A stretch of DNA of 64,000 nt from Actinomycetota bacterium (lineage in GTDB: Bacteria > Actinomycetota > Thermoleophilia > Gaiellales > Gaiellaceae), in assembly GCA_004366385.1 (NCBI GenBank), contig SIRU01000033.1:124001-188000 (forward strand). The letters are read 5' to 3'. A program made the translations under genes and the position numbers. Each line of letters starts with the position of its first letter. The stretch's first letter is position 1. The notes below the pieces were generated by a model, which saw only the letters and a list, made by a program, of their open reading frames with translations, was not told where the DNA came from and searched no databases. This document shows positions 39,974 through 45,460 of this stretch, piece by piece.

Positions 39974-40414
39974 CTACGGAGCGTCCAGGACGATCGTCAC
40001 GGGGCCGTCGTTCACCAGCTCGACCTCCATGCGCGCGCCGAAGGCGCCGCGCGCGACGCGCACGCCCTCGGCCTCGAGCGCCGAGCAGAAGCGCTCGTAG
40101 AGCGGCTCCGCGACCTCGGGCGCGGCCGCGCCGGTGAAGCTCGGGCGGTTGCCCTTGCGCGTGTCCGCGATCAGCGTGAACTGGCTCACCACGAGCGCCT
40201 CGCCGCCGGTGTCGAGGAGCGAGCGGTCGAAGCGGCCGTCCTCGTTCTCGAAGACCCGTAGCCTCGCGACCTTCCCGGCGAGCCGTTCCGCCGTCGCGTC
40301 GCCGTCCCCGTCCCCGACCCCGAGCAGAATCGCGAGGCCGGCTCCGCACGCGCCGACGACGGCACCGTCGACTGTGACCGACGCCCTCCGGATCCGCTGC
40401 ACCACGGCTCGCAC
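39974..40414 (-). CDS. dtd: D-aminoacyl-tRNA deacylase
   Basis: Removes D-amino acids (and glycine from tRNA-Ala) from charged tRNA. The 146-residue protein has the opening [17 protein letters not shown], the catalytic [17 protein letters not shown] and the C-terminal [12 protein letters not shown], all typical. The GTG at 40414 follows GACAAT by six bases, a weaker leaderless-type signal. It diverges from the pilB-like gene. Confidence 0.95.
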
Positions 40415-40525
40415 GGGGGCATTGTCACTCACTGCTCTAAACACCTTTGCGACATCAGCCGATACCCGGCACAGAATGCGAGAGTTCTCATAGAAGCGGC
40501 ACAGTTCCCCTGGCCCGCGCTCGGC

Positions 40526-43500
40526 GTGCTCCTCGTCCGCGACGGTCTCGTCAGCGCCGACGATCTCGAGCGCGTGCTGCGTGAGCAGGGAGACGGTCGC
40601 GACAGCCGCTTGTCGAGCCTCCGGCTCGGCGAGGCACTCGTTCACGAAGGGCTGGTCTCCAAGGCTGAGGTCGCCCGGCTCGTCGCCGAGCAGCACGAGC
40701 TCCCGTTCGTCGACCTGGAGAGCCCCGACGCGACGGTGCCGGTCGCCTCACGCGTGCCGGAGGAGCTCGCACGCCGCCACTCCGCACTCCCGATCCGCGT
40801 CTTCCCCGACGGCTCCCTGCTCGTCGTCGTGGCCGACCCGACCAGGCTCGGCTGCTTCGACGAGATCCGCGGCGCGGCGGGCGTCCCGGTCCGGTTCGCC
40901 GTCGCCGCCGCGGAGGAGATCGAGGCCGCGATCGACGCCGCGGCCGCGCGTGGGCTCTTCGGCGTAGGCACCGCGACCGACGCGAGCCCTCCGGAGAGCA
41001 CGCCGCCCGGGCCGCCGACGCCGATCCTCGGCCTCGCCGCCTTCGGGCCCGACGAGCCCCCCGTGACGAGCTTCGAGCGGGCGTGGCCGGCGTTCGGCTC
41101 GCTGCTGCTGCGGGACGGTCTCGTCACGGCGGAGGAGCTGGAGACCGCGCTCGCCCAGCAGCGGCTGTCGGCCACCCGTCGCCTCGGCGAGATCCTCGTC
41201 GCACGCGGTTCGCTCTCGGACGACCAGGTGGCGCGGATCCTCGCGGAGCAGCACGAGCTGCCGTTCGTCGAGCTCGACACCCGTGACCTGGACGCCGAGA
41301 CCGCGAGGCGCCTCCCGGCCGAGGTCGCCCGAGAGCACTCCGCGATCCCGATCGCGACGGGCTCCGACGGCTCGCTCCTGGTCGCAGTCGCCGACCCGAC
41401 GAGCGCGCTCTCGTCCGAGGAGCTCCGTTCCGTCCTGGGCGCGCCGCTCCGCTTCGCGGTCGCCACGCACGACGCGATCGCAGCGGCCATCGACGCGGTC
41501 TCGGGACCGGAGCTGACCCTCGCCGTGTACCCACTCGAGGCCGAGGCCGAGGCCGAGGCGGAGGCCGAGGCCGACGGTCCCGCGGCGCCTGACGGCGACG
41601 GTGAACCCACCACTGCCTCCGCGCTAGATGACCTTCCGCCGCTGCTGCTCGCACAGCCGGTACAGGAAGCCGAGGACGGCGTCGAAGCGGACGTGCCCGT
41701 CGAGGAAGCTTCGCTCGAGACCCAGGCCGCGGAGGGCGCCGACGTCGTCGAGCTCGTCGAGCTCGCGGACCGTGAGGACTTGGGCATCACCTCCGAGGCC
41801 GAGACGGTGGAGGCAGAGAGTGACCACGCCGAGGCCGCCGCAGTCGAGCCGCTCGACGCCGACGTCGACACGGCCGAGGTCGAGCCGAGATTCGCCCTCG
41901 CGCACGAGCCGCTCGGCTTCGAGCCGGTCGAGTCAATCGCCGAGCCCACGGCGGAGGTCGTGGAGGAGGAGCCGAAGCTCGAGGAGGCCGGCGCCGAGAC
42001 CTGGACGCCGGCTGGGGACGAGCCCGATGCGCCCTCCTTCGAGCCGCTGGACGCAGACGTCGAGCCGGTCGCCGAGGCCGTCGAGGAGGAGCCCGAGCTC
42101 CCCGCAGCCGAAACCGCACTCGAGCCTGACGCCGAGGCCTGGGCACGTACCGACGACGAGACCGATCCCGAGGCGATCTCGTTCGAGCCGCTCGAGAGCG
42201 ACGCCGATCCGGTCACCGAGGCCGTCGAGGGCGAGCTCGGACCTCCGGAGGACGAGGCCGCCGTCGTGGCTTGGGCGCCGGACGAGGACGACACCCCGCC
42301 GGAGCCGTTCTCCTTCGGATCGCTCGAGAACGAGCCGGAGCGCCCCGAGGCTGAGACCGACCCCGATCCCTTCCCCTTCGAGCCGCTCGAGGCACACGTC
42401 GAGTCGGCCACCGAGGCCGTCGAGGACGAGCCGGAGCTCGCCGAGGCCGAGACCGTCGTCGAAGACGAGACCGAGCCGGAGCCGCTCCCCTTCGAGTGGT
42501 TCGTCGACGACGAGGCGCCGGACGCGGACACAGTGGCGCCGTTCTCAACCGAGGAGCGCGCTCCCGAGGTCGTCGAGGCGGCTGTCGAGGTCGCGTCGAC
42601 GGAGACACTCGAGCCGACCTCGCCCATCGTCCACGCGCTCGAGCGCGCGATCGCGCAGGGCGCGTCGGCCGTGCACGTCACTCCGACGCCCGACGGGCTC
42701 GTCGTCCGCGCGCGCGTCGACGGCGATGTCCGCGAGCTCGAGCGCATTCCCGGCACGCCGTCGGCCGTTGCGACCCATCTCTCCGACCTCGCTGCCTCGG
42801 GTCGCGTGACGCTCGACGGCGAGGAGGCGACGGCTGAGCTCCGCTTCGTCGTGCTCCCCACCGTGCGCGGCGTCCGCGCGACGTTCCGCCTCGTGAAGGA
42901 CTCCACGGCCCCGCGCACGCTCGCGGAGCTGGTGGGCGACGCGTTCGACGCGGTCGCGGAGGCGTTGCATCGTCCCGGCCTGGTCGTGGTCGGAGGCCCG
43001 CCGGGAAGCGGGACGACGACCACCCTGTACGCGGCGCTCGAAGAGCTCGCCGGCGACTCGGTCGCGCTCACGATCGAGGATCCCGTGGAGCGTCGTCTCG
43101 TGGGCGTCGACCAGATCGAGGTCGACCTTCGAGCCGGCCTCACCTACACCGCGGGCCTGCACGCCATCCTCCGCTCGGACCCCGACGTCGTGGGGATCGG
43201 CGAGCTCGCCGACCCGGAGACGGCGGCGCTCGCCGCGCGGGCCGCGAGCGAGGGCAAGCGCGTGCTCGCGACCGTCGGCGCGGACGGCGCTGCGGGCGCC
43301 GTGCGGCGCCTGCTCGACCACGGCGTCGATCCGGCAGTGCTCGCCCCGTCACTCTCGGGCGTCCTCTCCCAGCGGCTCGTGCGCAGGATCTGCACCGACT
43401 GCCGGGAGGCCTACTACGCGACCGCCGAGGAGCTCGTCGACCTCGGCCTCGGCGTCGAGGAGGGCGGCAGCCGCCTGCTCGGCCGCGGCAGCGGCTGCGA

Positions 43501-43708
43501 GAGCTGCGACGGCACGGGGCATCGCGGCCACGTCGCCGTCTTCGAGGTTCTTCCGCTCACGGACGACGTCGCCGCACAGATCGCCGCAGGCGCCACGGCG
43601 CACGCGATCGAGGAAGCGGCCGTCGCCGCGGGCATGCGCACCCTCCGCGAGGGTGCCGTCCGGCTCTGCCTCGAGGGCGTGACGACCGCGGACCAGGCAC
43701 GCCCCTAG
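40526..43708 (+). CDS. PilB/GspE-like pseudo-ATPase with two MshEN domains and acidic repeat linker
   Basis: A 1060-residue paralog of the PilB next door. Two MshEN (GspE N-terminal) domains lie at about residues 1-147 and 190-330. A Glu/Ala/Pro-rich linker (about 335-690) follows, with five degenerate repeats beginning FEPL. The C-terminal ATPase domain starts near 699. Walker A reads [10 protein letters not shown], with Thr830 for the essential Lys, and the HTxSA-type His box is VGADGAA without His. IEDPVE, GEL and the four zinc Cys (CTDC, CESC) are kept. ATP hydrolysis is unlikely; a structural or c-di-GMP-sensing partner of PilB is plausible. Homology to PilB extends upstream to an ATA at 40490. 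Confidence 0.85.
41537..41572 (+). repeat. GAGGCC hexanucleotide repeat inside the pilB-like gene
   Basis: Six tandem units, one with a single change, encoding Glu-Ala repeats at the start of the acidic linker. Length change by whole units would keep the frame. Confidence 0.75.
41918..42505 (+). repeat. Degenerate coding repeats in the acidic linker
   Basis: About five in-frame units of roughly 40-45 codons, each opening with FEPL/FEPV/FGSL/FEWF-like residues and often followed by a TEAVE.EPEL segment. They lie at residues 465-660 of the pilB-like protein and encode a highly negative, probably unfolded stretch. Confidence 0.6.
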
Positions 43709-43771
43709 CTCCCCGGGCGACGCGAGCGTCGACTCACGGTCGGCCCGCCCACGGCCGATATTCCAGTCGTC

Positions 43772-45460
43772 ATGGAAGCTGCCCAGCACTCGTGGCCCTC
43801 GCTCGGTGGGCTTCTCCTCCGCGACGGGCTCGTGTCCAGGGAGGATCTCGAGGCGGCGCTCGTCGAGCAGCGTGAGTCGGGCCGGCGCCTGGGCGAGATC
43901 CTCGCCGAGCGAGACCTCGTCACGCGCACGCAGATCGCCCGCGTGCTCGCCGAGCAGTTCGAGCTGCCGTTCGTCGACCTCGCAGAGTCGGAGGTGGAAG
44001 TCGACGCCGCAGCGCTCCTGCCGGAGGAGCTCGCGCGTCGCTACTGCGCCCTCCCGGTGAGCGTGGACCCGGAGGGCGCGCTGCTCGTCGCGGTCGCCGA
44101 CCCCACCAACGTCCTCCACTCGGACGAGCTCCGGCTCGCGCTCGACGTGCCGCTCCGCTTCGCCGTGGCCGCACCGGACGCGATCGACGCGGCGATCGCC
44201 TTCGTCCACCAGCAGGCGTTGACGCTCGTCGACGAGCAGACCGAGGAGCCGAGCGACGCCTCACTCGGCATCCACGACGTCGAAGAGGGCGACGTCGCGA
44301 CTCCTGCGGTGTCCCAGGTCAACAAGACGATCCAGCGCGCGCTCGCGCTCGGCGCCTCGGACATCCACTTCACGCCACAGCCGCGCGGGCTGGTCGTGCG
44401 GGCACGCGTGGACGGCGTCGTCCGGGAGCTCGCCGCGATCCCCGGCTCGCACCAGGGCGCGGTCACCAGCCGCCTCAAGGTCATGGGCCGGCTCGACATC
44501 GCCGAGCGGCGCGCCCCCCAGGACGGGCGCGTGGCCGTCAAGACCGGAGGCCAGACCGTCGACCTGCGCATGGCGGTCCTGCCCACGAAGTTCGGCGAGA
44601 AGGTCACGCTTCGCGTGCTCAACCAGGCCGCCGCGCCCGACTCGCTCTCCGAGCTCTGCATGGCGGCGGACACGGAGGAGATCCTCCGCAAGGCCATCCG
44701 GCAGCCTTACGGCGCGATCCTCACCTGCGGCCCGACCGGCAGCGGGAAGACGACGACGCTGTACGCCGCGCTCCAGGAGCTGAACACGCCCGAGCGCACG
44801 ATCATGACCATCGAGGACCCGGTCGAGTATGTGACCACGGGGGTCGACCAGGTCGAGGTCAACGTCCGGGCGGGCCTCACGTTCGCGCGTGGGCTGCGGA
44901 CCATCCTCCGCTCCGACCCCGACACGATCCTGGTCGGCGAGATTCGCGACGAGGAGACCGCGCAGATCGCGATCCGGGCAGCGATGACCGGCCACCTCGT
45001 GCTCTCCACGCTGCATACGCAGTCGGCGGCCGCGGCGATCCACCGGCTCACCGACATGGGCGTGGAGCCGGGGCTCGTCGCGAGCACCGTCACGTGCCTC
45101 GTCGCCCAGCGCCTCGTCCGCCGCATCTGCCCCGACTGCCGGGAGGAGTACACCGCAGGCGCGGAGGAGCGCGCCGTCCTCGTGAAGCCGCGCCAGAAGG
45201 TGCCGAAGCTCGCGCGTGGCACCGGCTGCACGGCGTGCGGCGAGACCGGCTTCCGGGGGCGGGTCGGGCTGTTCGAGGTGCTGCCGCTCACCGACGACAT
45301 CCGGGAGCTCGCGGCCGCCCGCGCTTCGACGGCCGAGATCCAGAGCCTCGCCGTCACCGCCGGCATGCGGACGCTGCGCGAGGACGGCGTCCGGCTCTGC
45401 CTCGAGGGCGTGACGACGACGGACGAGGTCCGCCGCGTCGCCGGCGACTGGAACGCGTAG
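43772..45460 (+). CDS. pilB: Type IV pilus/type II secretion assembly ATPase PilB/GspE
   Basis: Hexameric motor that drives pilin or pseudopilin assembly at the inner face of the membrane. The 562-residue protein has one MshEN domain (about 1-150, a known c-di-GMP-binding fold in related ATPases), then the ATPase domain with Walker A GPTGSGKTTT (Lys326), Asp box TIEDPVEY, Walker B ILVGEIRDEET, His box STLHTQSA and the tetracysteine zinc motif (CPDC, CTAC). All catalytic parts are intact. The ATG has no clear ribosome binding site. No pilC, pilT or pilin gene is in the window. Confidence 0.95.
   Translation: MEAAQHSWPSLGGLLLRDGLVSREDLEAALVEQRESGRRLGEILAERDLVTRTQIARVLAEQFELPFVDLAESEVEVDAAALLPEELARRYCALPVSVDPEGALLVAVADPTNVLHSDELRLALDVPLRFAVAAPDAIDAAIAFVHQQALTLVDEQTEEPSDASLGIHDVEEGDVATPAVSQVNKTIQRALALGASDIHFTPQPRGLVVRARVDGVVRELAAIPGSHQGAVTSRLKVMGRLDIAERRAPQDGRVAVKTGGQTVDLRMAVLPTKFGEKVTLRVLNQAAAPDSLSELCMAADTEEILRKAIRQPYGAILTCGPTGSGKTTTLYAALQELNTPERTIMTIEDPVEYVTTGVDQVEVNVRAGLTFARGLRTILRSDPDTILVGEIRDEETAQIAIRAAMTGHLVLSTLHTQSAAAAIHRLTDMGVEPGLVASTVTCLVAQRLVRRICPDCREEYTAGAEERAVLVKPRQKVPKLARGTGCTACGETGFRGRVGLFEVLPLTDDIRELAAARASTAEIQSLAVTAGMRTLREDGVRLCLEGVTTTDEVRRVAGDWNA

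Follow-up and report, generated by a model that had tools for sequence, protein, structure and literature searches.

A pilB-like gene with ATA at its homologous start position and out of register with a WhiG/FliA-type promoter in a Gaiellaceae genome

In Rubrobacter, the sigma factor WhiG was reported to control type IV pili, and the WhiG/flagellar consensus is given as a -35 element TAAA and a -10 element GCCGATAA (Schumacher et al. 2021, PMC8325347). In Streptomyces coelicolor, the gene whiH, which has the WhiG -10 box GCCGACAA, has been described as leaderless (PMC3160421). Mycobacterial translation from a leaderless 5' end was reported to require ATG or GTG, and none of the leadered codons lacking a Shine-Dalgarno sequence was enriched (PMC4633059). 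Termination followed by re-initiation is known as well; it is aided by a Shine-Dalgarno sequence and declines with distance (PMC2268962). Streptomyces sigR is a long gene that starts with GTC, and the use of this codon was shown experimentally (PMC5472188). Among the papers listed on AUA or ATA start codons, most concern mitochondria or animals.

The locus described here lies in the window, the whole 64,000-nucleotide stretch of DNA from a Gaiellaceae genome that was analysed (Table 1). It resembles the Rubrobacter WhiG regulon in having a FliA/WhiG sigma factor, TAAA/GCCGATA promoters, and pilus and c-di-GMP-related targets (PMC8325347). It differs in that at most sites a start codon occupies the leaderless slot, whereas the main text of the Rubrobacter paper does not contain the word 'leaderless'. 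Whereas whiH is a single leaderless gene, the pattern found here runs through the family and is broken in one member. That member is a pilB-like gene and, as in sigR, none of ATG, GTG and TTG occupies its homologous start; unlike the GTC of sigR, however, the ATA found here occurs in one genome and is shared by no relative examined (PMC5472188).

Table 1. Features of the pilB-like/pilB region (window positions)
Feature	Position	Strand	Remarks
FliA/WhiG (sigma-28) type promoter	40438..40464	+	TAAA 40438-40441, 16-base spacer, GCCGATA 40458-40464
Five-codon frame ATG CGA GAG TTC TCA TAG (MREFS)	40476..40493	+	ATG 11 bases past GCCGATA; its frame differs from that of the pilB-like gene
ATA in place of the homologous start codon	40490..40492	+	overlaps the TAG (40491-40493) of the five-codon frame
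Eleven conserved N-terminal codons of the pilB-like gene	40493..40525	+	from alignment with homologues matching from residue 1
In-frame GTG	40526..40528	+	position 12 in the protein alignment; no ATG/GTG in any frame lies between it and the stop of the five-codon frame
pilB-like open frame, 1060 codons from GTG	40526..43708	+	MshEN and T2SSE domains; threonine in place of the Walker A lysine
Similar but weaker promoter upstream of pilB	43734..43760	+	TCAC, 16 bases, GCCGATA
pilB, intact Walker A	43772..45460	+	ATG 11 bases past GCCGATA

The predicted product of the pilB-like gene carries an MshEN domain (117.5 bits) and a T2SSE domain (218.5 bits), as do the PilB/GspE type IV pilus assembly ATPases. 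Unlike these ATPases, it has lost the Walker A lysine, while the neighbouring PilB keeps GPTGSGKTTT. When the orthologues were inspected for this residue, the lysine was missing in one (L099), again with threonine in its place, and kept in another (L004), and a third (L100) gave no match to the motif used.

The ATA was placed in the frame of the pilB-like gene by reading the sequence together with the list of open frames. It is followed by GAA GCG GCA CAG TTC CCC TGG CCC GCG CTC GGC and then by the GTG. The initial annotation had observed that no in-frame ATG, GTG or TTG precedes the ATA, and indeed none was found as far back as a TAG stop at 40259. It had also matched the upstream codons to the N-terminus of PilB and the ATA to the ATG of pilB, and both assignments were borne out by alignment. 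The pilB gene itself starts with ATG (sequence TCATGGAAGC; translation beginning MEAAQHSWPSLG), and E1, A2, A3, W7 and G11 are invariant across six aligned sequences covering the eleven N-terminal codons. Moreover, the pilB-like protein can be aligned from residue 1 with its three same-genus orthologues (52% identity with G008, 47% with G005 and 45% with G006), and all three have an ATG immediately before that residue. By this conservation, which exceeds chance, the eleven codons are native coding sequence.

The family was also searched with the N-terminal part of PilB as query, which gave a match in 82 of 103 genomes. Among the matches listed, 17 begin at residue 1, and ATG or GTG (RTG) directly precedes this residue in 16: PilB of the same genome, the three same-genus orthologues and 12 family members (ATG in eight, GTG in four). 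The only exception among these 17 is the pilB-like gene of the window. For this purpose, start codons were read at 24 of the 30 loci L069-L098; L069, which is the genome's own pilB, and five loci matching from residue 10 or later were left out. ATA was absent as a conserved start from the relatives examined, since all three genus orthologues have ATG and all 12 family homologues RTG. The displaced-start arrangement is carried by one genome only, and no closer strain was found in the genus sample of 11 genomes, the window's genome included. Because of this single occurrence, regulation and damage look alike.

Upstream of the gene we found a promoter that follows the pattern TAAA, 15-16 bases, GCCGATA(A), but in which the last A of the eight-base consensus is C. 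A gene for a FliA/WhiG sigma factor is present in the genome (TIGR02479, 289.6 bits; cut-off, 189.6), and the pattern TAAAN{14,17}GCCGATA occurs at only two sites in the whole 2.73 Mb, compared with none for the reversed control. At the second site (L033:1501-1538), a GTG eight bases on opens a 111-codon frame for a LuxR/GerE-type regulator. The pilB-like gene is therefore a putative member of a WhiG/FliA-type promoter regulon. The neighbouring pilB is preceded by a weaker promoter of this type and so does not have to rely on the damaged start upstream. A scan of ten proteins encoded by predicted regulon targets identified seven (T2SSF, GGDEF with response regulator, HD, response regulator, GerE, NlpC/P60 and sigma-70); the other three gave no match. 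Such targets agree with the Rubrobacter regulon, for which pilus and c-di-GMP genes are reported.

Sigma-28 transcripts start about seven bases beyond the -10 box, and we quantified the distance from this box to the next start codon. In the genus, 14 promoter sites were found in 10 of 11 genomes (reversed control, 2). All 14 have RTG 8-11 bases past GCCGATA, and at 13 of them it opens at least 96 codons, compared with five in the window. Family-wide, 152 sites were counted in 78 of 103 genomes (reversed control, 12; totals summed by hand), and RTG lies 8-11 bases past GCCGATA at 104 of them, although these sites come from related genomes and are not independent. The offset is 8 bases in 67 cases, 9 in 21, 10 in 7 and 11 in 9; at the remaining 48 sites RTG is absent from +8 to +11. 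By chance, RTG would fall into this slot at a rate of 8.1% (17,716 window positions), or 4.7% if it had to open 90 codons. Among the 36 sites for which DNA was retrieved (14 from the genus and 22 others), 30 have RTG at 8-11 bases, and the frame is shorter than 60 codons in six of these: five codons in the window, 26 in one case and 51-53 in four. In six of the 12 family homologues matching from residue 1, there is no GATA eight bases ahead of the start.

The spacing suggests that the mRNAs of the WhiG-type regulon are mostly leaderless or nearly so, and such a regulon is better supported than an ATA start. Our literature search, largely confined to sources outside subscription journals, found no report of a leaderless WhiG-type regulon for this family and nothing linking 'Gaiella' with 'leaderless'. 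The four frames of 51-53 codons (L183, L185, L187 and L193), of which that at L185 gave no Pfam match, may encode small pilin-like proteins.

In the window, promoter and start codon have lost this register. The ATG follows GATA by 8, 9 and 10 bases in the three same-genus orthologues and by 11 in pilB, whereas the ATA lies 25 bases past it, an excess of about 14 bases. The slot itself is filled by the ATG at 40476, which belongs to the five-codon frame and not to the long one, and the stop of this short frame covers the final two bases of the ATA. It is the only frame of fewer than 26 codons opened by a slot RTG among the 36 sites with retrieved DNA, but its ATG may be coincidence, as RTG occupies the slot in about 8% of cases by chance. 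The promoter, the ATG in the leaderless slot, the overlap of stop and ATA and the roughly 14 extra bases had all been overlooked by the initial annotation.

We conclude that a normal leaderless start is broken here, either by the extra bases, with or without a change of ATG to ATA, or by an assembly error. Two origins fit. In the first, an insertion between promoter and start was accompanied by a change of ATG to ATA, and the TCAT before GAAGC hints at this course. In the second, a single insertion of 14 bases took place directly after a kept ATG at 40476, so that the ATA represents the last bases of the insertion; this requires one event and retains the 11-base spacing of pilB. Comparison of the leaders gave 12 of 38 matching bases for one origin and 9 of 38 for the other, with shuffle fractions of 0.28 and 0.83, and favours neither. 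An eight-base direct repeat, CGGCACAG, is found around the short frame at 40467-40474 and 40497-40504, with 30 bases between the positions, and is possibly due to chance. We considered the CGGCACAG repeat as the trace of a duplication and rejected it, since the bases beyond the two copies do not match.

Neither candidate start of the long frame has the usual ribosome-binding signal. Pairing energies were calculated with what we take to be the anti-Shine-Dalgarno octamer. The duplex before the ATA reaches -3.0 kcal/mol, which equals the median of 3000 random 19-mers from the window (-3.0), and that before the GTG only -1.5 kcal/mol, indicating no support. A Shine-Dalgarno-driven start on ATA, considered on account of a GAGAG five bases before it, was rejected because of this background-level energy. 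RNA folding at the start gave no signal (z = 0.62). A ribosomal frameshift out of the short frame was also discarded: it would have to be -1, and no slippery heptamer was seen by eye at TTC TCA TAG.

Taking these results together, we favour, as somewhat better than an even proposition, the reading that the pilB-like gene is a leaderless WhiG-type gene whose start at 40490 was uncoupled from its promoter by about 14 bases, and that it is weakly translated. Ribosomes would meet the 5' end of the mRNA at the ATG at 40476, synthesise MREFS and be released at 40493, if the mycobacterial requirement for ATG or GTG applies here. The long frame would then be translated weakly, since the ATG in the slot yields only MREFS; most of what remains would come from re-initiation at the GTG, 32 bases past the stop of the short frame and 61 past the promoter, or from the ATA at a low level. 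With a start on GTG, the protein would lack the conserved N-terminal tail of the family and the first domain's residues L-G. We infer the transcription start, the leaderlessness and the effect on expression from the sequence. Against this reading, an intact frame of more than 1000 codons would be unexpected in a gene inactivated long ago.

The initial annotation had left a choice between translation from the ATA and a mutated start with weak expression or internal initiation at the GTG. A lost start is likely. A true ATA start, lacking Shine-Dalgarno support and lying 25 bases past the promoter, is unlikely, and less probable than poor expression or re-initiation at 40526. That an ATG was mutated is unproven, because the extra bases allow the ATA to have arisen as the end of an insertion.

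Among the other explanations, a sequencing or assembly error survives best, although we regard it as improbable. In the real organism, the gene would then begin with RTG or have its N-terminus in frame, and would be quite ordinary. The window belongs to a draft of 63 contigs, all 16 other listed starts at residue 1 are RTG, and a single miscalled base or an error of one base in length could create an odd start. However, no homopolymer longer than two bases occurs between 40476 and 40493, one base does not explain why the conserved codons also lie at an unusual distance from GATA, and the remaining 1060 codons run without a stop or frame break.

In our estimate there is only a slim chance that the ATA functions as a start that is weak by design, held down by IF3 like the GTC of Streptomyces sigR or the ATT/ATC of infC. 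Its position is homologous to RTG in relatives, the long frame is intact, and IF3-controlled non-canonical starts have been described in Actinobacteria (PMC5472188). Still, the codon has no Shine-Dalgarno sequence to assist it and recurs in none of the relatives examined, and mycobacterial leaderless reporters were functional with ATG and GTG only (PMC4633059).

We give similarly little credit to the idea that the five-codon frame is a functional leaderless upstream ORF, on which ribosomes load at 40476, terminate at 40493 and start again on the ATA or the GTG, keeping the pilB-like protein at a low, regulated level. Its ATG is in the expected slot, its stop and the ATA share bases in a way similar to coupled genes, and the first RTG past this stop is the in-frame GTG. 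On the other hand, the short frame is not conserved and has no equal among the 36 sites, damage fits the pattern equally well, and the distance from stop to GTG is probably long for re-initiation without a Shine-Dalgarno sequence, judging from what is reported on this process (PMC2268962). A more specific version, in which re-initiation on AUA or GTG lets initiation factors set the ratio of the pseudo-ATPase PilB-like protein to active PilB, appears more doubtful still. Finally, although the alignment with solved PilB relatives begins only at residues 9-10, which means that little of the domain would be lost, and although the mechanical list of open frames begins there, it is very improbable that the GTG is the normal start and the codons before it are untranslated, given that these are conserved in the family behind an RTG and that the GTG has neither Shine-Dalgarno support nor proximity to the promoter.

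If the arrangement is real, it represents a natural experiment on a leaderless gene that lost the register between promoter and start codon. For annotation of the family, the promoter is often sufficient to place the start codons of the WhiG-type regulon, 8-11 bases past GCCGATA. The results also suggest that the link between WhiG and pili known from Rubrobacter extends to another actinobacterial lineage, with largely leaderless mRNAs; in that case, pilus production would be tied to conditions that favour leaderless translation. With respect to the protein, the orthologues differ in the Walker A lysine as if a pilus ATPase were turning into a pseudo-enzyme. In the window, a long, acidic and repetitive linker rich in Glu, Asp, Ala and Pro (41500-42600) separates the N-terminal domains from the ATPase domain.
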